Assembly (NCBI RefSeq): GCF_006715765.1
Contig: NZ_VFNV01000001.1
Span: 1,550,001-1,614,000, forward strand
Direction: 5' to 3'
Length of the DNA stretch: 64,000 nt
DNA from: Rarobacter incanus
Lineage (GTDB): Bacteria > Actinomycetota > Actinomycetes > Actinomycetales > Cellulomonadaceae
This document shows positions 2,255 through 14,450 of the stretch, in pieces (the first letter of the stretch is position 1; every line of letters starts with the position of its first letter). Both the position numbers and the translations under genes were made by a program. The notes under the pieces were generated by a model that did no database searches, was not told the DNA's origin, and saw only the letters and a list, made by a program, of their open reading frames with translations.

Positions 2255-2941
2255 GTGAGTCATCCACCACTCGAATCCATCATCGACCCCGGTTGGGCGC
2301 GGGCGCTTGCGCCGGTCGAGCCGCAAATTCACCTCATGGGTGGCTTTTTAAGGGACGAGGTCGCCGCAGGTCGCCCGTATCTACCCGCGCCTGGCGACGT
2401 GCTGCGCGCCTTCACATACCCGCTCGCGGATGTTCGCGTGCTCATCGTCGGACAGGATCCGTATCCGACCCCCGGCAACCCCGTGGGGTTGTCGTTCGCG
2501 GTAGCGCCCGGGGTGGCCGTGCCGGCGTCCCTAGACAACATCTTCAAGGAATTGGTAAGTGATGTGGGGTGCGAGCGCCCCTCCTCGGGCGATCTCACGG
2601 CGTGGGCCGAGCGCGGAGTCATGCTGCTGAACAGGGTTCTGACCGTGCAGGCGGGACAGGCCCGCTCGCATCGCCGCCGGGGCTGGGAGCAGGTCACGGA
2701 TTGCGCCATCGACGCCCTGGTGGCGCGCGGCGGCCCCTTGGTTGCGATCCTGTGGGGCAACGACGCGCAGTCCCTGCGGCCGCGGTTGGGCACCGTGCCG
2801 GTCATCGCATCGGCGCACCCGTCACCGCTCTCGGCCTACCGGGGCTTCTTCGGGTCGCGCCCGTTTTCCACGGCCAACCGGCTGCTCGTCGAGCAGGGGG
2901 CATCGCCGATCGACTGGACGCTCCCGTCATCCACCCGCTGA
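2255..2941 (+). CDS. ung: Uracil-DNA glycosylase (family 1)
   Basis: Removes uracil from DNA as the first step of base-excision repair. The family-1 motifs are intact: GQDPYPTPG with the catalytic Asp (about residues 66-74), VLLNRVLTV, and [14 protein letters not shown] with the catalytic His near the C terminus. Length 228 residues is normal. I prefer GTG at 2255 to the in-frame ATG at 2225. Neither has a Shine-Dalgarno, but a TACGGT -10 element (2243-2248) ends six bases before the GTG, the arrangement of a leaderless mRNA. The final codons and TGA (2939-2941) lie inside the first unit of the downstream repeat array, so the array has replaced or abuts the gene's original end. Confidence 0.93.
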
Positions 2942-3580
2942 CCGAGTAGCACACCCACCCGCTGATCGAGTAGCACACCCACCCGCTGATCGAGTGCGCC
3001 GAAGGCGCGTATCGAGATCAATGCGGCGTAGTCTCGATACGCCCGCTACGCGGGCTACTCGACCAACGAATCCGCGCGCCACCCGCTGATCGAGTAGCAC
3101 ACCCACCCGCTGACCGAGTAGCACACCCACCCGCTGACCGAGTAGCACACCCACCCGCTGACCGAGTAGCACATCCACCCGCTGATCGAGTGCGCCGAAG
3201 GCGCGTATCGAGATCAATGCGGCGTAGTCTCGATACGCCCGCTACGCGGGCTACTCGACCAACGAATCCGCGCGCCACCCGCTGACCGAGTAGCACATCC
3301 ACCCGCTGATCGAGTAGCACACCCACCCGCTGATCGAGTGCGCCGAAGGCGCGTATCGAGATCAATGCGGCATAGTCTCGATACGCCCGCTACGCGGGCT
3401 ACTCGACCAACGAATCCGCGCGCCACCCGCTGACCGAGTAGCACACCCACCCGCTGATCGAGTAGCACACCCACCCGCTGACCGAGTAGCACACCCACCC
3501 GCTGACCGAGTAGCACACCCACCCGCTGATCGAGTAGCACACCCACCCGCTGATCGAGTAGCACACCCACCCGCTGATCG
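2934..3580. repeat. Composite array: 24-bp tandem units with three 100-bp palindromic modules
   Basis: Fourteen full 24-bp units (consensus begins CCCGCTGAYCGAGTAGCA) are interrupted by three nearly identical 100-bp modules at 2982-3081, 3178-3277 and 3326-3425. The unit order is 2, module, 4, module, 2, module, 6, plus a partial unit at 3570. Each module starts like a unit, then carries two small hairpins (GCGCC-gaa-GGCGC and CCCGC-tac-GCGGG). These sit inside a longer inverted repeat (TATCGAGA...TCTCGATA and outer GATCGAGT...ACTCGACC), giving a branched, cloverleaf-like fold. The modules resemble the REP-like palindromes common between genes of high-GC actinobacteria. The reverse strand stays open in 8-codon periods only because the unit is a multiple of three. 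No gene is supported here. Confidence 0.95.
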
Positions 3581-3617: not shown

Positions 3618-6614
3618 GTGCCCAATCACATCAGTCCCGAACAATGGGCGCAGGTAGTCCTGCGCCGATACGCGGCGGCAACCAACCTGCTGATCGCCTC
3701 CCGCCACTTCGCGATCGCGGACCCCCGCGACGCCAACCTTGAGTCGCTGGCCGCCGCCATGCGGGCAATTGGGGCGAGAGTGACCTGGGTGGACCCCTCG
3801 GAGCCGTGCGAGGAACGCTCGTTCCACGCCCTATTCGGCTACGACCTGCCGGCAACGGGATGCCCGGGCGTTGACGTCACCGTCAGCGTCGCCCCCGCCG
3901 CGGCCGGCAGCCCGATCCCCGCGGGTGAATCAAAAACCGTCGATGTGACCGTGCGCGACGAGGCCGGCGCCGTCTTGACCAGACCAACGGGGGCGGACGG
4001 CACGGCACGCATCGCCTGGGCCCGCAGGCACATGCCCGTGACTGCCGCGATCGAGAACCGCCTAACCGAAAGCCGCGCCCTGCGGGGGTGGCGGATCGGA
4101 ATGTCGCTGGTGCTTGAACCAAAGACGGCCGTGCTGGCCCTTGCGCTCGCCCGCGCCGGCGCGCTGGTATCGGTGTTTGGCCACCCCGCCGAAACGCGCG
4201 ACGACGTTGCCGATGCGCTGCGCAAGCAGGGGCTGGCCGTCTTCGCCGACTCCCGGGCAACGCCCGCGCAGGCGGCACAGCTCGCGGACCAATACCTGCG
4301 GCGCGGTCACGACCTGCTGATCGATGACGGTTCGCATCTGATCCGCCGCGCACACGAATTGCCGGACGTTTTGGACCAGTTGCGCGGGGCGGCCGAAGAA
4401 ACGACCAGCGGCCTGCGGCCGCTGCGAGCGTGGGCTGAGCAAGACCGCCTGGGCATCCCGGTCATCGCCGTCAACGACGCTCGCTCAAAGACACTTTTCG
4501 ACAACGCCTACGGAACCGGCCAGTCGTGCCTGCTGACCATCATGGACCTGGTCGACCCGGACCATCGCGGCATCGACATGAGCCAGACCACCATCACCGT
4601 CATCGGCTACGGCGACGTGGGCCGCGGCTTCGCCCACCACGCGCGGGCGCTTGGCGCGACCGTCCATGTTTCCGAAATCGATCCGGTTCGCGCCCTGCAG
4701 GCACGGTTCGATGGCTACGAGGTCGGTGACACCGCCGAACTGGCAACCCGCACCGATTGGATCGTGTCGGCCACGGGAGTGCGCGACACGATCAACGTAG
4801 CTGTTCTACAGGCCGCAAAGGATGGAGCCGTGCTGGCGGTCGCCGGCGGCGTAGACCAAGAAATCTCGATCGAGGACGCGCGAACCGCGGGCTTTACGAA
4901 CCGCCAAGTGCGGCCGCGCGTCAAGCAATGGTCGCGGCCGGCAGGGGGGGAACTCGTTCTTCTTGATGACGGCGAATGCATCAACGTCACCGCCGGTGAG
5001 GGCAACCCCATCGAAATCATGGACCTGTCCTTTGCGGTGCAATTGCGCGCCATCGAAGCCCTGGTTTCCACGGATGCGCCCACGGCACCCGGCGTGTACC
5101 CCCTCAGCGCGCAGGCTGACAACGACGTCGCGGCCGCGGCGCTCATCACCGGCGAGTCCGGATCGTGGACCGGGGCCGCGCGCGCGACGCCCGGCGATGA
5201 GACGCAAAGCGCCCCGCCCTCGCCCGCGCCGCTGCACGTCGCCGAACGCAAGTCGGCCATCGCCCGCGAATACGGGGTGGCATTGGGTACTGAGCGGTCC
5301 AACCCGTCGCTGGTCAACGTGTATTCGGCGGCGCTAGTGATCCCGGTGACCGCACCCGCCGTGATCGGCGGCGCCGTGGCGGTTCGCGGCGGGCGCATCA
5401 TGCACGTTGGCGAACGCGACTGGGTCGTCAAGACACTGCGGGAAACCGGGCAGGCGTTCACCGAACGCCACTGGCCGGGTGTCCTGCTGCCCGGGCTGGT
5501 CAACGCCCACACGCACTTGCAGTACACCTCGATGGTCGAGGTCGCATCGCGCACCTACGCGGGTTTTGACGATTGGGCGCAGGCCTTCAACGTCGTGTAC
5601 GACAACGGCGTGCACGATTGGGGCGCGCACGCCGCCGACGGCGCGCGCCAGGCGATTCGGTTCGGCACCACGGCCGCGGCCGACGTCGTGACCGACCCGG
5701 AGGCCGCCCCCGCGCTGCACGATGCGGGCCTGCACGGCGTCGCGTACTGGGAGGTCATGGGCTGGACCAACGAGGAGTGGGCCAAGTACGGAGAAACGCA
5801 AACCCTCGCCGCTCTTGACAGCATGCCGACCCCGCCGATGGTCGGGCTTTCCCCGCATGCCCCGTACTCCCTTGACACCGCCCCTCTCCTGGAGATACCC
5901 GACCTGGTGCGCCGGCGCGGCCTGCGTCTGCACATCCACCTGGCCGAATCCCAACTCGAGGCGCAGTGGGCGCAGCAATCGAGCGGATCGCTTGCCGACC
6001 TGTGGCGGTCCGGGCAGTCGCAGAGCTTTAGGGTTCTGCGGGACAACGGTTTTGGAATGAGCGCCACCGAGTTTGTCGACCAGCTCGGGGTGCTTGGCCC
6101 GGACTGCCACGTGGCGCACGGCGTGTACATGACGGCCTGGGACCGGTCGCTGCTGCGGGCGCGCGCGACGTCGGTGGCACTGTGCCCGCGGTCGAACCAG
6201 ATCATCGGGCTCGATGCGCCGCCGGTTGCCGCCTACCTGAACGAGGGGAACCCGATAGCGGTCGGAACCGACTCCCTATCGTCGTCGCCGTCGCTGGATC
6301 TGCTCGCGGACGTTGCGCTGTTGTACGAATTGGCGCGCGCGCAGGGGTACGAGCGCGACGACCTCGGCCGGCGCCTGCTGTACGCGGCGACGTTGGGGGG
6401 CGCCACGGCCCTGGGACTGAGCGCGGGCCCGGACCGCATCGGGCAGTTGCAGACCGGCGCGGTTGCCGACATGGTTTTCTTGGACATACCCGTTTCGGAC
6501 ATTTTCGGAACGATCGAGGACGTTGTGCGCCACGGTGCCGGATCGCAGGTCGCGACCATGATTTCCGGCGAACTGCGATACATGGACGCCGTATTCAATC
6601 AGGCAAGTCGGTAA
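3618..6614 (+). CDS. Fused adenosylhomocysteinase-like / amidohydrolase (SAH deaminase-like) protein
   Basis: A 998-residue two-enzyme fusion. Residues 1-125 are an unassigned N-terminal region. Residues 130-480 match S-adenosylhomocysteine hydrolase: IAWARRHMP, IDDGSH (235-240), EETTSG (260-265), K291 and D295-N296 in the KTLFDN segment, and a Rossmann NAD site GYGDVGRG (330-337). Residues 560-998 are a TRZ/ATZ/SAH-deaminase-type amidohydrolase with metal ligands HTH (631-633), H774 in LHIHLAE, H834 in AHGVYM, and D885 in GTDSL. The catalytic Asp, Glu, Lys and Asp of the hydrolase are kept. The substrate-pocket segment that reads LHMTVETAVL in human SAHH is LVLEPKTAVL here, so the adenosine-side His is missing. 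That suggests a changed purine, such as the inosine form. The activity is inferred, not proven. The start is the leaderless GTG at 3618; a cupin gene follows after 7 bases. Confidence 0.85.
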   Translation: MPNHISPEQWAQVVLRRYAAATNLLIASRHFAIADPRDANLESLAAAMRAIGARVTWVDPSEPCEERSFHALFGYDLPATGCPGVDVTVSVAPAAAGSPIPAGESKTVDVTVRDEAGAVLTRPTGADGTARIAWARRHMPVTAAIENRLTESRALRGWRIGMSLVLEPKTAVLALALARAGALVSVFGHPAETRDDVADALRKQGLAVFADSRATPAQAAQLADQYLRRGHDLLIDDGSHLIRRAHELPDVLDQLRGAAEETTSGLRPLRAWAEQDRLGIPVIAVNDARSKTLFDNAYGTGQSCLLTIMDLVDPDHRGIDMSQTTITVIGYGDVGRGFAHHARALGATVHVSEIDPVRALQARFDGYEVGDTAELATRTDWIVSATGVRDTINVAVLQAAKDGAVLAVAGGVDQEISIEDARTAGFTNRQVRPRVKQWSRPAGGELVLLDDGECINVTAGEGNPIEIMDLSFAVQLRAIEALVSTDAPTAPGVYPLSAQADNDVAAAALITGESGSWTGAARATPGDETQSAPPSPAPLHVAERKSAIAREYGVALGTERSNPSLVNVYSAALVIPVTAPAVIGGAVAVRGGRIMHVGERDWVVKTLRETGQAFTERHWPGVLLPGLVNAHTHLQYTSMVEVASRTYAGFDDWAQAFNVVYDNGVHDWGAHAADGARQAIRFGTTAAADVVTDPEAAPALHDAGLHGVAYWEVMGWTNEEWAKYGETQTLAALDSMPTPPMVGLSPHAPYSLDTAPLLEIPDLVRRRGLRLHIHLAESQLEAQWAQQSSGSLADLWRSGQSQSFRVLRDNGFGMSATEFVDQLGVLGPDCHVAHGVYMTAWDRSLLRARATSVALCPRSNQIIGLDAPPVAAYLNEGNPIAVGTDSLSSSPSLDLLADVALLYELARAQGYERDDLGRRLLYAATLGGATALGLSAGPDRIGQLQTGAVADMVFLDIPVSDIFGTIEDVVRHGAGSQVATMISGELRYMDAVFNQASR

Positions 6615-6621
6615 AAGGATC

Positions 6622-7104
6622 ATGATGGACGAGTTCCCCGCCCCACCCGCTCCCGCATCGACCGATGAGGGGGCGGCCGCCGTGCGGCCCGCCCTGGCGG
6701 TCGCCCTGGGGCTTGCGCCCCACCCAGAGGGCGGGTGGTTCCGCCGCACGTGGACGGCGCCGGTCAGCGTGCAGACGGCGCGCGGCGAGCGCGCAACGGC
6801 GTCCGCGATCCAGTTCTTCCTGGCGGCGGGGGAATCCGCGGCGTGGCATGTGGTGCGATCGGACGAGCTGTGGCTGTGGCACGGACCGGGCGCCCTGCGC
6901 CTCCAGTTCGGCGGGACGGGGGCGGCGCCCGATGAGACCGGCGAAACCGTGACGCTGGACTCGTCCTTGGATATCCCCCGTGTCCAACTGCTGATACCCG
7001 CCGGGGTGTGGCAACGCGCCCTGCCCGTCGCAAGCGACGTGCTGGCGACCTGCGTCGTATCGCCCGAATTCTGGTACGAAGATTGGCGCCTGGCCGACGA
7101 TTAG
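6622..7104 (+). CDS. Cupin_5 (DUF985) family protein
   Basis: A 160-residue protein with the cupin_5 (DUF985) pattern: LGLAPHPEGGWFRRTW near residues 30-45, a sugar-isomerase-like beta barrel segment FFLAAGESAAWHVVRSDELW, and the C-terminal VVSPEFWYEDW. Members of this family are small cytosolic beta-barrel proteins of unproven function. The acidic and histidine residues of the barrel are kept (E35, the WH and DE pairs). It begins 7 bases after the SAHH-amidohydrolase fusion with a purine-rich stretch before ATG, so the two are probably one operon. A role connected with the fusion is possible but is guilt by position only. Confidence 0.85.
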   Translation: MMDEFPAPPAPASTDEGAAAVRPALAVALGLAPHPEGGWFRRTWTAPVSVQTARGERATASAIQFFLAAGESAAWHVVRSDELWLWHGPGALRLQFGGTGAAPDETGETVTLDSSLDIPRVQLLIPAGVWQRALPVASDVLATCVVSPEFWYEDWRLADD

Positions 7105-7334: not shown

Positions 7335-8228
7335 ATGCGCATCTCCCGTCCCACACTTCGTCGCGGCGCCGCCGCCCTAGCGGCAGCGGCCACCGTCTTG
7401 GCGCTGAGCGCATGCGGTTCGTCCTCCACGTCCTCGCCCACGGCCACCACCCCCAGCGCGGGCGCATCGACCACCACCGCCGCGGCCGACCTGCCCACCG
7501 TCGAAAAGGGCAAGCTCACCATCGCGACGGGCGAACCGGCTTACAGCCCGTGGGTCGAAAACGATGACCCCGAATCCGGCGAGGGATTCGAAGCCGCCGT
7601 GGCCTACGCGGTCGCCGAACAGCTCGGATTCAGCAAGGACCAGGTCGTGTGGAAGCGGTCCACGTTCGACTCCGCGATCGCGCCGGGCCCCAAGGACTGG
7701 GACTTCAACCTGCAGCAGTTCTCGATCACCGATGAGCGTAAACAGGCCGTTGATTTCTCGTCCCCGTACTACGTGACCGCGCAGGCCGTCCTGACCATCA
7801 AGGGAAGCGCCGCCGAATCGGCAACGACTATTGCGGACCTGAAGAAGATCAAGTTCGGCGTGCAGGCCGGATCGACCTCGGCGACAGCGCTCGAGAAGTT
7901 CGTCGACCCCGATTCCGACCCGTTGCAGTTCAATAGCTCGCAGGACACCGTGCAGGCGCTCAAGGGCGGTCAGGTTGAGGCCATCGTCGTCGACCTGCCG
8001 CAGGCACTGTACCTGGCGGGTGTCGAGCTGTCCGACCTGGGAGGCAAAGTCATCGGCCAGTTCGAAGACACCACGGGCGGAGATGAGTACGGCTTGGTCC
8101 TGCCCAAGGGTTCCGAGCTGACCACGCCCGTCACCGCGGCCGTTGACGCGCTGCGCGAAGACGGCACGCTCGCGGAATTGCAAGAAAAGTGGCTGTCAAG
8201 CAACATTTCCGTCCCGGTCCTGAAGTAG
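7335..8228 (+). CDS. Amino-acid ABC transporter substrate-binding lipoprotein
   Basis: A 297-residue family-3 (SBP_bac_3) periplasmic-type binding protein. A lipoprotein signal peptide ends in LSAC (Cys27), followed by a Ser/Thr/Ala linker and the two-lobed binding domain from about residue 60 (KGKLTIATGEPAYSPW... to KWLSSNISVPVLK). The family captures polar amino acids or opines outside the cell; the ligand cannot be read from the sequence. The open frame extends upstream to 7008, but the true start is ATG 7335. It follows GGAGGA by six bases and places the signal peptide at the N terminus. It is the first gene of a binding protein-permease-ATPase operon. Confidence 0.92.
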   Translation: MRISRPTLRRGAAALAAAATVLALSACGSSSTSSPTATTPSAGASTTTAAADLPTVEKGKLTIATGEPAYSPWVENDDPESGEGFEAAVAYAVAEQLGFSKDQVVWKRSTFDSAIAPGPKDWDFNLQQFSITDERKQAVDFSSPYYVTAQAVLTIKGSAAESATTIADLKKIKFGVQAGSTSATALEKFVDPDSDPLQFNSSQDTVQALKGGQVEAIVVDLPQALYLAGVELSDLGGKVIGQFEDTTGGDEYGLVLPKGSELTTPVTAAVDALREDGTLAELQEKWLSSNISVPVLK

Positions 8229-8238
8229 ATTTCACGTC

Positions 8239-9144
8239 ATGACTACAAGCGGCGCTTCGCGCACCAGTGACCGCGACGCCGCGGGCGCGCCGGTCGGCCT
8301 CGATATCGTCAGCGACATCGAGATCGGTCGGCGCGCCTACCGCCGCCAACAGACCACCAAATCCATCATCATCTCGCTGGTCAGCACCGTCGTCTTCGCC
8401 GCGATCATCGTGGTGGTGCTATCCAACTCGCCCGGCTGGCAAGTAACGAGGGAAACGTTCTTCAGCCCGGAGCACTTCGTCAAGGCACTTCCCAAGGTCG
8501 CCGTCGGCCTGTGGCTCAACATCAAGGTCCTGTTCTTCGCGGTCATCGGCGTCGCCGTGCTTGGCACGCTCCTGGCGGTGCTGCGCTCTTTGCGCGGCGC
8601 GGTGTTCTTCCCGCTGCGATTCCTGGCCGCGGCCTACACCGACCTGTTCCGCGGCGTCCCGTTCCTGATCGTCCTGTACCTGGTCGGATTCGGTATCCCG
8701 GCACTGGGCCTGACCGACAAGGTCATCCCGTACGCGATCTTGGGAACGATCGCCCTGGTCTTGACGTATTCGTCCTATGTCGCGGAGGTTCTGCGCGCCG
8801 GCCTGGAGGCCGTGCATCCTTCGCAGCGCTACGCCGCCCGCTCACTGGGGCTGAGCCACGCACAGACCCTTCGCCTGATCGTGCTGCCACAGGCGATCCG
8901 CAAGGTCACTCCCGCCCTCATGAACGACTTCGTGTCGATGCAAAAGGACGTCGGGCTCATTTCGGTGCTGGGAGCGGTTGACGCGATCCGCGCCGCCCAG
9001 ATTTACCAGGCGACCACGTACAACTTCACTTCCTACGTCGTCGCTGGCCTGCTCTTCGTGTGCCTCTCGTGGCCATTCATCCGGCTCACGGACTGGTACA
9101 CCGCCCGCCAACAACGCCGCGAACAGATGGGAGGGGTGGTCTGA
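8239..9144 (+). CDS. Amino-acid ABC transporter permease (HisM/GlnP type)
   Basis: A 301-residue inner-membrane permease. After a cytosolic N terminus (about 40 residues) come a first helix, a non-membrane insert (WQVTRETFFSPEHFVKAL), and the typical four to five helices. The EAA-type ATPase-contact loop reads AARSLGLSHAQTLRLIVLPQAIRKVTPAL around residues 190-220. It starts 10 bases after the binding-protein stop and its TGA overlaps the next ATG, so translation is coupled. A single permease gene suggests a homodimer. Confidence 0.92.
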   Translation: MTTSGASRTSDRDAAGAPVGLDIVSDIEIGRRAYRRQQTTKSIIISLVSTVVFAAIIVVVLSNSPGWQVTRETFFSPEHFVKALPKVAVGLWLNIKVLFFAVIGVAVLGTLLAVLRSLRGAVFFPLRFLAAAYTDLFRGVPFLIVLYLVGFGIPALGLTDKVIPYAILGTIALVLTYSSYVAEVLRAGLEAVHPSQRYAARSLGLSHAQTLRLIVLPQAIRKVTPALMNDFVSMQKDVGLISVLGAVDAIRAAQIYQATTYNFTSYVVAGLLFVCLSWPFIRLTDWYTARQQRREQMGGVV

Positions 9145-9887
9145 TGACTGCGACAACACCCGTACTCGACGTCCGCGGGGTCGTCAAGAAGTTCGGCGAC
9201 AATTACGTGCTTCGCCGCCTGGATTTGGCCGTCCACAAGGATGAGGTCGTGGTGCTGCTCGGGGCGTCCGGTTCCGGCAAATCCACGCTGCTGCGCACCG
9301 CGAATCTGCTTGAGCGCGTCGACGACGGCCAGATTTTCCTGTCCGGCGAGGACATCACCGACCCGCGGGTCAAGGTCGACGCCGTCCGCGCCCGCATCGG
9401 GGTCGTCTTTCAGCACTTCAACCTCTTCCCACACCTGCGCGTGCTGGACAACGTGACGCTCGCGGCGCGCAAGGTCCACGGCTGGGATGCGGCGCGCGCC
9501 GAACAACGCGGCATGGAATTGCTGGCCCGCATTGGCCTGGCCGATAAGGCGCGCGACTACCCCGACAGGCTCTCTGGCGGCCAGCAGCAGCGCGTGGCGA
9601 TCGTGCGTGCGGTTGCGACGAACCCCGAGTTGCTTTTATTGGACGAGATCACCTCCGCCCTTGACCCCGTCCTTGTGGGCGAGGTGCTTGATCTGGTGGG
9701 TGAGCTCAAGGAACTTGGTTCCACGGTGCTGATGGCGACGCACGAGATCGGGTTCGCGCGCCGCGTCGCTGACCGCGTCGTGTTCTTGCAGCACGGCGTG
9801 ATCGTCGAGCAGGGGCCGCCCGCCCAGGTCATCGACAATCCGCGGGAGAAAGCCACCCAGGACTTCCTGGCGCGCGTTCTTCACTGA
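9144..9887 (+). CDS. Amino-acid ABC transporter ATP-binding protein
   Basis: A 247-residue ABC ATPase of the GlnQ/HisP class: Walker A GASGSGKST, Q-loop (VFQHFNLFPHL), signature LSGGQQQR, Walker B LLLLDE with an unusual I for P in DEITSALDP, and the H-loop MATHEIGF. It powers the permease encoded directly upstream. The start is the ATG at 9144 inside the permease stop (ATGA overlap). The frame is open further 5' only because it passes through the permease gene in another phase. Confidence 0.93.
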   Translation: MTATTPVLDVRGVVKKFGDNYVLRRLDLAVHKDEVVVLLGASGSGKSTLLRTANLLERVDDGQIFLSGEDITDPRVKVDAVRARIGVVFQHFNLFPHLRVLDNVTLAARKVHGWDAARAEQRGMELLARIGLADKARDYPDRLSGGQQQRVAIVRAVATNPELLLLDEITSALDPVLVGEVLDLVGELKELGSTVLMATHEIGFARRVADRVVFLQHGVIVEQGPPAQVIDNPREKATQDFLARVLH

Positions 9888-10608: not shown

Positions 10609-11385
10609 CTACAGGACCTTCGACAGGAAGTCCTGGGTGCGTTGCTCTTGCGGGTTGTCGATGACCTCGGTAGGCGTCCCGTGCTCAACGATGACGCCGT
10701 CGGCCATGAACACGACCTGGTCGGCAACCTCCCGGGCAAAGCCAATTTCGTGCGTCACCACGATCATCGTCATGCCGTCGGCGGCCAAATCCTTCATGAC
10801 CGCCAACACCTCACCTACCAGTTCCGGGTCAAGCGCGGAGGTGGGCTCGTCAAAAAGCATCAGGTCGGGATCCATCGCCAGCGCGCGTGCGATCGCAACG
10901 CGCTGCTGCTGGCCGCCCGACAGCTGCGCGGGATAGTGATCCATGCGGTCGGCAAGGCCAACGCGATCGAGTAGCTGCTTGGCGCGCGCGGTCGCATCCG
11001 CCTTGGACCGACCCAGCACCTGCACCTGCCCCTCGATGACGTTCTGCAACGCCGTGAAGTGCGGGAACAGGTTGAAACGTTGAAACACCATCCCGATGTG
11101 GGCGCGCTGCTTGGCAACCAACTTCGGGTGCAGCTTTTGCAGGCGGTCGTGGCCGCCCTTCGTGACCTCCTTGTACCCCATCAGCTCGCCCTCGACGTAG
11201 ATACGCCCGGCGGTTATTTCCTCAAGCTGATTGATGCACCTGAGCGCGGTCGACTTACCAGACCCGGACGGCCCCAGCATGACGCATACGGACCCCGCCT
11301 GCACGGTGAGATCGATGCCCTTGAGAACGTGGTTGTGCCCGAATTCCTTGTGGACGTCGCGCATTTCGACCATGGGAGTTGTCAT
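10609..11385 (-). CDS. Amino-acid ABC transporter ATP-binding protein
   Basis: A 258-residue GlnQ-type ATPase: Walker [11 protein letters not shown]-loop [11 protein letters not shown], signature LSGGQQQR, Walker [14 protein letters not shown], and H-loop VVTHEIGF. It also has the small insert after Walker A ([27 protein letters not shown]) seen in some members. It is the last gene of a four-gene operon (two binding proteins, permease, ATPase), starting 9 bases after the permease stop. It faces the other ABC cassette across tRNA-Leu. Its stop codon abuts the Fic remnant, so its own downstream terminator has probably been lost. Confidence 0.93.
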
Positions 11386-11394
11386 TGTCGTGCC

Positions 11395-12390
11395 TCACGT
11401 TCCTGATTCGTCAAGAGGGCCGGGATCCGGCGTCGTCTTCGCCGCGTTGATCGCGCCCTGGCGGGCTCCTCGCTTGCCGGCCCGCTCCTTCAGCTTTGCC
11501 CCGACGCCGGAGGCCGCGGCAATGTTCCGACCATCGAAACCGCGCCCGTAGTACCGCTCCAGGTAGTACTGGCCCACCATCAGGATCGACGTGATTACCA
11601 GGTACCAGATTGCGGCCACGAGCAGAAGCGGCACGGGGGCGAATGTGCGCGAACCGATCGCGGAAGACTGATAGGTCAAGTCGAGCGTGAACGGCACCGC
11701 CAGGACCAGGGACGTTGTCTTCAGCATCGAGATAGTCTCGTTGCCCGTCGGGGGGACGATCACTCGCATCGCCTGCGGGATCACGATGCGGCGCATGATC
11801 GACCAGTTCTTCATTCCCAGCGCGCGAGCCGCCTCGTGCTGGCCCGGGTCAACAGACTGCAACCCCGCCCGGATGATCTCTGCCAGATAGGCGGCCTCGT
11901 TGAAGGCCAAACCCAAAATCGCGGGGATCGCGGCCAGCGTGCCAACCGTCAGCGGCTTGGTTTCGAAGGAGAAGAACTCCGGGCCGAAGGGGATTCCCAG
12001 CGACAGCATCGGGTACAACACCGACAGCAGGCCCCAAAAGACCAGCTGCGTGTACACCGGGGTGCCGCGGAAGAACCAGATATAGAACCACGCCACCGAG
12101 CGCATGACCGGGTTTTCCGACGACCGCATGATGGCGAGCGTCAGGGCCATGACTACGGCCAAAACCATCGACGCGACGGTCAGGATCAGCGTCCACCCGA
12201 TTGCTCGCAGGATGTTCTCGTGGAAGAGGTACTTAGCAACCAGGTCCCACTGCAACACCTCATTGGTCACCAACCCATGAATGAACATCGCAGCGATGAC
12301 CGCCACGATGATCGCCGAAACGACGCGCCACGGGTACCGAACCGGAATCGCATGAATCCGGTCGGGGATATCGTCGGGTGCTGCACTCAT
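11395..12390 (-). CDS. Amino-acid ABC transporter permease
   Basis: A 331-residue HisM/GlnP-type permease with an N-terminal helix (about 22-42), a 60-residue linker, a core of four helices, and the EAA loop ARALGMKNWSIMRRIVIPQAMRVIVPP. The C-terminal tail, about 40 residues, is basic and cytosolic (KLKERAGKRGARQG). It begins 6 bases after the stop of the adjacent binding protein. The long soluble tail is more than the family needs; its role is unknown. Confidence 0.92.
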   Translation of the reverse strand: MSAAPDDIPDRIHAIPVRYPWRVVSAIIVAVIAAMFIHGLVTNEVLQWDLVAKYLFHENILRAIGWTLILTVASMVLAVVMALTLAIMRSSENPVMRSVAWFYIWFFRGTPVYTQLVFWGLLSVLYPMLSLGIPFGPEFFSFETKPLTVGTLAAIPAILGLAFNEAAYLAEIIRAGLQSVDPGQHEAARALGMKNWSIMRRIVIPQAMRVIVPPTGNETISMLKTTSLVLAVPFTLDLTYQSSAIGSRTFAPVPLLLVAAIWYLVITSILMVGQYYLERYYGRGFDGRNIAAASGVGAKLKERAGKRGARQGAINAAKTTPDPGPLDESGT

Positions 12391-12396
12391 ATGCGT

Positions 12397-13278
12397 TTAA
12401 CCTGCCGGGTTGAGTTCTGCGGTCGTAACAGCGCCGGTCTCGACGTGCCACGTGGTCAGGATCTTTGTGTAGGTGCCGTCGTCAATGAGCTTTTGCACAG
12501 CCTTTTGAATCGCCTCGGTCAGCGCCGTGTCATCCTTGGCCACGACGATTCCCTGCTGAGCTGAATCGAAAATCCCACCGAGCTGTTCAAGTTTGCCACC
12601 GGTTTGCTCGATTGCATAGGCGACGATGGGCGAGTCCGCGTACATCACGTCAGCCTTGCCGCCCAGCAGCGCGGTTGTCGCTTCCGATTGCTGATCGAAC
12701 TGCAGCGGTGTTGGCGCCGCCTTCCCCGCCTTCTCGCACGCCGGCGCGAGCGTCTCGGTGAGCGACTTGTCCTGCGCGGTTCCAGTTTGTACGGCGACGG
12801 TCAGGCCGCACACGTCGTCAGCGCTGGCGCCCTGCGGATTGCCCGCTGCAACCGCGAACGCCGACCCCGCCTGGAAGTACGACACCATATTGACCTGCTC
12901 GATCCGTTCGGGCGAGATGGTGAAGGACGAGATTCCCACGTCGTACTTGGACCCGATCGCCGGGATGATCGCGTCAAAGGCAGAGGATTGGACCTCGGCC
13001 TGCAGGCCCAGCACCTGGCCGATAGCCTTTGCCAGGTCTACGTCGTAGCCGGTCGGCGTCTTACCGTCCTCCCCCAGGAATTCGGCGGGCGCGTACGTCA
13101 GTTCCGCGCCGACCACGAGTTTGCCGGTCTTCGCTATGGACTCCGGGACAAGCTTGGCGATGGCCTCGTCCTTGAGGTTCGTCGGCGCAGATGACGAAGA
13201 TTCCGTATCCGAACTGGAGCAACCCGCCAAGGTCAGCGCCAGCGCGGCCGTTATCCCCAGGACTGTGATTTTTCGCAT
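12397..13278 (-). CDS. Amino-acid ABC transporter substrate-binding lipoprotein (copy 1)
   Basis: A 293-residue SBP_bac_3 lipoprotein. The signal peptide ends in LAGC (Cys20), followed by a Ser-rich linker and a mature domain from TGKLVVGAELTYAPAEFLGEDGKTPTGYDVDL. That segment is nearly identical in pattern to the neighbouring copy at 13375-14271, so the two arose by tandem duplication. Both keep a paired cysteine arrangement (DVCGL ... APACEKAGK) that could form a disulphide in the mature protein. The ligand is unknown; the duplicates may give the one permease two specificities. Confidence 0.92.
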   Translation of the reverse strand: MRKITVLGITAALALTLAGCSSSDTESSSSAPTNLKDEAIAKLVPESIAKTGKLVVGAELTYAPAEFLGEDGKTPTGYDVDLAKAIGQVLGLQAEVQSSAFDAIIPAIGSKYDVGISSFTISPERIEQVNMVSYFQAGSAFAVAAGNPQGASADDVCGLTVAVQTGTAQDKSLTETLAPACEKAGKAAPTPLQFDQQSEATTALLGGKADVMYADSPIVAYAIEQTGGKLEQLGGIFDSAQQGIVVAKDDTALTEAIQKAVQKLIDDGTYTKILTTWHVETGAVTTAELNPAG

Positions 13279-13327
13279 GAACTCTCTCCACGGTGCGGTC
13301 GATGTGCCGCGTGTGCAAAAACAAATA

Positions 13328-13368
13328 GTGCGGCGCTCCCATGCTAGTCAGCATTCGGAGCGCCGCAC
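13328..13368 (-). terminator. Rho-independent terminator or attenuator after the first binding-protein gene
   Basis: A 12-bp stem (GTGCGGCGCTCC / GGAGCGCCGCAC) lies just after the stop codon at 13375 and is followed on the minus strand by TATTTGTTTTTG. It would reduce read-through into the second binding protein and permease, making the first binding protein the most abundant product. Confidence 0.75.
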
Positions 13369-13374
13369 CGGGAC

Positions 13375-14271
13375 TTAGCTAGCGGGGTTGATCTCCGCCG
13401 TAGCGACCGCACTCTCGGACATCCCCCACTTGTCGAGGATCTTGCCGTAGGTGCCGTTATCGATGATCTTCTGCAGCGCGGCCTGGACCGCCTCGGTGAG
13501 CTTTTCGTCGCTCTTGGAAACCACGACCGCCTGCGGCGCGGTGTCGAAGATGTCGCCCAACTGCTCGAGCTTGTCACCGGTCTGCGCGACTGCGTACGCG
13601 ATGACCGGTGAATCGGCGGCCATGACGTCGGCCTTACCGCCCAACAGTGCGGTGGTCACATCGGTTTGCAGGTCGTACTGCAGCGGGGTGGGCGCTGTCT
13701 TGCCGGCCTTCTCGCAGGCGGGAATGACGGTGTCTTTCACGTAGTCATCCTGCGTGGTTCCCGTCTGCACGCCGATCACCAGGCCGCACAGATCGTCGGT
13801 CGTGAGCCCCTTCGGGTTGCCCTTGGCGACCGCGAAAGCGGAGCCGGCCGACAGGTACGACACCATATTCACCTGCTGCATACGTTCGGGATTGACGGTG
13901 AAGGACGAGATCCCGATGTCGTATTTGGATCCGACCGCGGGAATGATCGCGTCGAAGGATGAAGACTGCACGTCGGCCTTGAGCCCCATGACCGCGGCGA
14001 TCGCGTCCGCGATCTCTACGTCGTAGCCGATGGGTGTCTTACCGTCTTCATCCAGGAACTCGGCGGGGGCGTAACTGGTGTCGGATCCGACAACCAGCTT
14101 CCCGGTCGCGGAAATTGTCTCGGGGACCAGCGCCGCGATCGTGTCGTCCTTGGCGCTGGCGGTGGCGGAGGCCGTCGATGTGGCGGTCGTCGTCGCCTCA
14201 CCGCCACCGCCACAAGCCGTCAGGGTGAGCAGGGCGCCCAGCGCCACCGCTGTAAGAATTATCTTGCGCAT
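13375..14271 (-). CDS. Amino-acid ABC transporter substrate-binding lipoprotein (copy 2)
   Basis: A 298-residue paralogue of the neighbouring binding protein, with lipobox LTAC (Cys20), a Thr/Ala/Ser linker, and mature domain from TGKLVVGSDTSYAPAEFLDEDGKTPIGYDVEIADAI. It shares the DLCGL and IPACEKAGK cysteines with copy 1. The frame is open to 14355, but ATG 14271 is the start because it gives the lipoprotein signal MRKIILTAVALGALLTLTAC, matching the first residues of copy 1 (MRKI). It is the promoter-proximal gene of the operon and is separated from copy 1 by a terminator-like hairpin. Confidence 0.92.
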   Translation of the reverse strand: MRKIILTAVALGALLTLTACGGGGEATTTATSTASATASAKDDTIAALVPETISATGKLVVGSDTSYAPAEFLDEDGKTPIGYDVEIADAIAAVMGLKADVQSSSFDAIIPAVGSKYDIGISSFTVNPERMQQVNMVSYLSAGSAFAVAKGNPKGLTTDDLCGLVIGVQTGTTQDDYVKDTVIPACEKAGKTAPTPLQYDLQTDVTTALLGGKADVMAADSPVIAYAVAQTGDKLEQLGDIFDTAPQAVVVSKSDEKLTEAVQAALQKIIDNGTYGKILDKWGMSESAVATAEINPAS

Positions 14272-14450
14272 GATGGTCTCCGTGTGTGAATTTTTTACGA
14301 ATATCGTCGGGGGATCGGCCCGGCTGACGGAATAGTTCCAACCGTAGACCCGCAATGTTACCGGTATGTATCGAATCGGGACCCACGTTCTCGTGCCGGC
14401 GGGCCGTTAGCAGTCCACGTGTCGCCGACGTTGTCCGCCTCCCCTACGAT

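Follow-up and report, generated by a model that had tools for sequence, protein, structure and literature searches.

The window, a 64,000-nucleotide stretch of the Rarobacter incanus genome, encodes a 998-residue protein that joins a domain derived from S-adenosylhomocysteine hydrolase (SAHH) to an amidohydrolase; with slightly less than even confidence, we read this fusion as the enzymatic core of an operon for uptake and breakdown of an alpha-amino-acid-bearing 5'-substituted adenosine, with S-adenosylhomocysteine (SAH) as the leading candidate. The initial annotation had proposed that both domains share one polypeptide, and the open reading frame and its Pfam matches (AdoHcyase_NAD, E 8e-32; AdoHcyase, E 2e-20; Amidohydro_1, E 6.5e-32) bear this out. 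A sequencing or frameshift artefact was rejected, since Rarobacter faecitabidus (locus L024), the closest fetched relative of the window genome, carries the same fusion in an open frame of 1101 codons. The gene and its parts are as follows:

3618..6614, + strand: fusion gene, SAHH-derived domain plus amidohydrolase, 998 aa, putative GTG start (open reading frame, domain matches)
3618..3971, + strand: extension at the N-terminus (residues 1-118), one degenerate half of a Rossmann unit of the kind that binds NAD in SAHH (hhalign, AF2)
3993..5150, + strand: SAHH-derived core, residues 126-511, archaeal type (Pfam, AF2, fold match)
4110..4130, + strand: base-pocket motif V165-LEPKTA, with Glu167 and Lys169 as in SIH-preferring enzymes and the catalytic His replaced by Val (81-sequence count)
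4323..4346, + strand: DDGSHLIR, with catalytic Asp237 and new His240 and Arg243; DDGGDLTN in canonical SAHH (81-sequence count)
4488..4505, + strand: K291-T-L-F-D295-N296, 3'-oxidation machinery kept (K, D and N in 81/81)
4605..4628, + strand: GYGDVGRG, NAD-binding glycine motif (Pfam, alignment)
4845..4853, + strand: G410-G411-V412, replacing the G-His-Phe molecular gate (G411 in 81/81, V412 in 77/81)
4998..5009, + strand: EGNP, replacing xGHP, with canonical His353 becoming Asn463 (81/81)
5481..6572, + strand: amidohydrolase domain, residues 622-985, with a full metal-ligand set (Pfam, alignment, AF2 pLDDT 87)

The core is homologous to SAHH over its whole fold: it passes the NCBIfam model NF004005 'adenosylhomocysteinase' (365 bits against a cut-off of 275) and stays below the cut-off of TIGR00936 (307 bits against 497.6), and its AF2 model (pLDDT 90) has its best fold matches in T. 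maritima 3x2f and P. furiosus 9ifb and 7r37, with a TMt of 0.90. The 40-residue insert found in most bacterial and eukaryotic SAHHs is missing, as it is in the HxExK SAHHs of P. furiosus, M. jannaschii, M. maripaludis and T. maritima, which share with the fusion the fold (TM 0.86-0.90), the NAD motif, the Lys-Asp-Asn triad and the Glu-x-Lys base motif. The preceding residues 1-118 have zero Pfam matches; in a profile comparison they resemble the first half of the SAHH NAD-binding domain (hhalign score of 30.8 against the canonical AhcY NAD domain; no higher than 18.6 across 150 controls with permuted columns), with a TNLLIA.R...GARV stretch from which the glycine motif is gone and an alpha-beta pattern in the AF2 model.

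Few enzymes are as strongly conserved across life as SAH hydrolase, whose His55 and gate residue His301 are described in textbooks. Residue counts were taken over 81 SAHH-like sequences, with canonical residues in human numbering. The NAD site and the catalytic Asp/Glu/Lys/Asp seen initially are indeed present: besides GYGDVGRG, the fusion has Asp237, Glu261, Lys291 and Asp295, plus Asn296, equivalent to human Asp131, Glu156, Lys186, Asp190 and Asn191, and these five residues and the NAD glycines are invariant (81/81). It had also been observed that LVLEPKTAVL stands at the position of human LHMTVETAVL, with loss of the pocket histidine; this reading holds, and the histidine of the HxT(E)xE(K) motif is missing from all 81 sequences, the His55 position being occupied by V in 55, T in 25 and M in one, while the Glu-x-Lys pair (E167, K169) is kept at both positions in 81/81. 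Gate His301 has become Gly411 in every sequence, which leaves no GHF gate, and beside the invariant Asp237 (81/81) stand His240 (79/81) and Arg243 (80/81). The changes of His301 to Gly411 and of His353 to Asn463 had not been raised in the initial annotation, nor had the N-terminal half-Rossmann fold, the operon or the presence of luxS and pfs. Unlike the HxExK SAHHs, the fusion family thus combines Val or Thr in place of the catalytic His, Gly-Val in place of the gate His-Phe, GNP for GHP, His240 for the Asp134 equivalent, a new Arg243 and an N-terminal half-Rossmann fold, and it is linked to a deaminase, by fusion or within an operon, and to an importer.

SIH-preferring (HxExK) hydrolases are marked by the ExK pair, whose Lys contacts hypoxanthine O6; catalytic importance has been ascribed to the His of the HxExK motif, and protection of the 3'-keto intermediate has been proposed as a function of the molecular gate (PMC10978960). 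A precedent is AgmF (angustmycin A dehydratase), an SAHH relative that catalyses a different nucleoside reaction and does not act on SAH, and in which alanine at either corresponding His abolishes activity (PMC8599513); AgmF keeps and needs His56 and His299, whereas the fusion family has neither. Judged from its residues, the base pocket would be compatible with an inosine-type substrate. Since ExK is kept while His55 and His301 are lost, the C5' chemistry either differs from that of known SAHHs or uses other residues, and the case for ordinary SIH hydrolysis by this domain is weakened, because the motif His and gate His are missing in 81/81 and AgmF alanine mutants of both are inactive.

The amidohydrolase domain had been credited with a full set of metal ligands, and the comparison with 31 relatives confirms it: H631, H633, H772/H774, E777, H834 and D885, the metal and proton-shuttle ligands of the HxH...H..E...H...D pattern, are invariant in these 31 sequences. 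The closest folds to its AF2 model are MTA/SAH/adenosine deaminases and aminofutalosine deaminase (the closest PDB folds include 4dzh, 4f0r, 4gbd and 7lkk). With the DadD / Tm0936-type MTA-SAH deaminases and with aminofutalosine deaminase it shares the amidohydrolase fold and the metal ligands; it differs from this group in that identity is about 20-25%, and it has invariant motifs of its own (NAHTHLQYT, YWEV and HGVYM). The MTA/SAH-deaminase model NF012037 is not passed (39.3 bits against a cut-off of 779).

The operon runs from the SAHH-like and amidohydrolase parts through a DUF985 cupin to a polar-amino-acid ABC importer, encoded in the window as follows:

6622..7104, + strand: Cupin_5 (DUF985) protein, operon gene three (PF06172, E 8e-31; conserved in 80 loci)
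7335..8228, + strand: family-3 solute-binding lipoprotein of the importer (PF00497, E 2e-22)
8239..9144, + strand: ABC permease, polar amino-acid type (PF00528; TIGR01726 over cut-off)
9144..9887, + strand: ABC ATPase, GlnQ type (PF00005, E 3e-33; PRK09493-like)

All six genes occur in the same order in 75 of the 82 fetched loci; some of the remaining loci stop at a contig edge, and in Rarobacter faecitabidus and Schaalia canis the cupin is present and the importer does not adjoin. The SBP_bac_3 protein, HisM-type permease and GlnQ-type ATPase together constitute a family-3 importer within one operon. Across 78 sequences its binding lipoprotein conserves an Arg in IT..R..AVDFS.PY and an Asp in DA.v.DLP, residues assigned in this protein family to binding of the alpha-carboxylate and alpha-amino groups of an alpha-amino acid. 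One DUF985 structure contains GDP (PMC11594714), a weak hint that the cupin might bind purines. Riboswitch control by SAH or SAM was rejected, none having been found in the window region or in six relatives. Directly upstream of the operon, in the gap that separates the fusion gene from the gene for uracil-DNA glycosylase, lies an array of tandem repeats of about 24 bp (CCACCCGCTGATCGAGTAGCACAC; window 2931-3580); none is reported in the Rarobacter faecitabidus locus. A second polar-amino-acid ABC transporter is encoded on the minus strand (window 10609-14355), with two neighbouring and similar binding lipoproteins (12397-13278 and 13375-14355).

Relatives were found by peptide patterns of the window protein in one genome-contig scan (147 found, 80 kept), so that distant forms may be missed. 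To judge by their record titles, the 80 kept are all Actinomycetota, from genera that include Schaalia, Actinomyces, Trueperella, Microbacterium, Demequina, Humibacter, Leifsonia, Agromyces and Acidipropionibacterium. Of the fetched relatives, only the two Rarobacter sequences showed the fusion itself; the others have adjacent or overlapping frames. Wide spread across Actinomycetota was rejected by means of an exact DNA pattern for EGNPIEIMD, which matched 11 of the 149 genomes sampled from the order (Rarobacter plus one other genus) and, in the phylum-wide sample of 397, the window's own genome and 0 of the 396 others; its 80/80 sensitivity is circular because the encoded peptide was also used to find the loci. 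Two loci filed under Xylanimonas cellulosilytica 352_XCEL (L048) and Sanguibacter keddieii 250_SKED (L052) are about 92-94% identical to Schaalia odontolytica (L036) over long stretches, and their organism names look wrong. A search of the open literature found no description of the SAHH-like/deaminase pair.

Questions about SAH disposal in the carrier genomes were answered by family searches. The initial annotation had noted the lack of a separate canonical sahH within the window, and in the whole 2.49-Mb Rarobacter genome the searches found no second SAHH; luxS and pfs lie together at C1:911972-913088, the Pfs protein scoring 120 bits against the MTA/SAH nucleosidase cut-off of 73.8, and a member of the same genus without the fusion (G029) also has LuxS and Pfs. 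Of the 33 distinct genomes with the operon, 20 encode LuxS and another 12 encode an AhcY of their own that matches strongly (E 1e-72 or better), with HxTxQ in all ten of those sequences that were read over their full length. Hence 32 of the 33 have LuxS or a canonical AhcY, and almost none of the carriers needs the operon to dispose of SAH as a housekeeping task; the sole exception is Salinibacterium sp. SWN167, which has the operon and neither LuxS, Pfs nor canonical AhcY. The Salinibacterium 'AhcY' was rejected as canonical, since it is another divergent paralogue, so that the complementarity of LuxS and AhcY is not perfect. It belongs to a further SAHH-like family of actinobacteria, divergent and about 395 residues long (L116:966-2151, L019:1476-2673, L006:1527-2706, L014), which keeps HLEPKTA and the gate His, has GNS for GHP and an altered Lys-Asp triad, and in Salinibacterium (L116) adjoins a nucleoside-hydrolase-like gene. 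Pfs-LuxS detoxification of SAH, although its genes share the genome with the fusion and are neighbours of the pair in several Demequina, is of unrelated chemistry; as the canonical SAH route it means that the fusion need not do that job, and the fusion is not housekeeping SAH disposal. The luxS and pfs genes are near the pair in eight fetched loci, and the six Demequina loci in which they lie directly upstream and divergent keep a link between the pair and SAH-related metabolism. MetE is present and no PF02574 (MetH-type) match occurs in eight genomes, which is uninformative for the substrate.

These results divide the earlier suggestion of a bacterial, one-chain version of the methanogen route, from SAH through S-inosylhomocysteine to inosine and homocysteine. 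The coupling of a deaminase with an ExK SAHH relative stands, and the two occur side by side in many genera; the route is decidedly unlikely as the way in which the organism treats its own SAH. The union of both activities in one chain, a genome without other ahcY and the operon-bearing SWN167 genome, in which no further SAH route was recognised, speak for it, but they are set against Pfs-LuxS in the window genome, the coverage of 32/33 operon genomes by LuxS or canonical AhcY, the congener that lacks the fusion, the importer within the operon, and the lost catalytic His and gate. No nucleoside hydrolase was found by family search in the window genome, and its one PNP_UDP_1 protein is Pfs; there is therefore no obvious user of inosine, a hint that in Rarobacter the pathway does not end at inosine, even if cleavage of inosine by enzymes of other families is possible.

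If the SAHH-derived domain no longer cleaved the C5'-X bond, it could form or release a 3'-keto nucleoside, from which the base might be lost; the keto-sugar would be handled by the DUF985 cupin. Loss of His55, His301 and the gate in 81/81 alongside the retained 3'-oxidation residues would suit such a role, as would the cupin as nearly always the next gene and the absence of a recognised inosine-cleaving enzyme from the window genome; we nevertheless regard it as unlikely, for the NADH would need reoxidation, the released keto product and the role of the cupin are both putative, and the new His240 and Arg243 could replace the lost residues. It is likewise rather doubtful that the operon represents an actinobacterial pathway unknown so far, in which amino-acid-bearing nucleosides would be imported and deaminated and then undergo a new SAHH-derived reaction, namely 3'-oxidation without the two C5' histidines, possibly yielding a keto-nucleoside for the cupin. 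That the SAHH-like domain has lost all catalysis and, as an NAD- or nucleoside-binding partner in the manner of AHCYL1/IRBIT, serves only to support or regulate the deaminase is distinctly improbable: three active-site histidines are lost, and identity to the window is lower for the SAHH part (about 40-61%) than for the deaminase (57-87%), yet Asp/Glu/Lys/Asp/Asn and the NAD motif are invariant in 81 sequences, the new residues beside Asp237 are nearly so, and the Lys-Asp-Asn triad, already gone in part from the Salinibacterium paralogue (L116), should have disappeared from a dead domain.

Uptake and breakdown of a substituted adenosine is thus the reading that we tentatively prefer. The Arg and Asp of the binding protein, an adenosine-type deaminase and an SAHH relative that would read hypoxanthine together point to import of an alpha-amino-acid-bearing 5'-substituted adenosine, of which SAH is the best-known. 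The genes, their operon, the conserved motifs, the folds and the independent SAH routes are direct results. In the working scheme built on them, for which we infer the substrate, the order of steps, the leaving group and the roles of the new His and Arg and of the cupin, the ABC system would import a compound with a free alpha-amino-acid head on a 5'-substituted adenosine, and the amidohydrolase would strip the 6-amino group from the adenine to give the inosine form. The SAHH-derived domain, with bound NAD, would then read hypoxanthine through Glu167 and Lys169; Lys291, Asp295 and Asn296 would oxidise the 3'-hydroxyl, Asp237 would abstract H4', and the 5' group (homocysteine or similar) would be expelled, with His240 and/or Arg243 filling the roles of the lost His55 and His301. 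The six-gene order (75/82), the pairing of the two genes side by side elsewhere and their fusion in Rarobacter, the ExK pair (81/81), both folds, the metal site, the Arg and Asp of the binding protein, luxS/pfs near the pair in eight loci and Salinibacterium sp. SWN167 without LuxS, Pfs or canonical AhcY count for this scheme; the loss of His55 and His301, the want of an obvious inosine user and the absence of a detected SAH/SAM riboswitch count against it.

As NF004005 accepts the fusion despite its three lost histidines, annotation and metabolic models may assign it a wrong role, and its relatives are probably misannotated as adenosylhomocysteinase in public genomes. An SAHH-like family in which the redox half of the active site persists while His55 and His301 are always missing offers a natural test of the roles of these residues. 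The operon would give the DUF985 cupin a first functional setting, and it may point to salvage of SAH or related compounds by oral and animal-associated Actinomyces, Schaalia and Trueperella.
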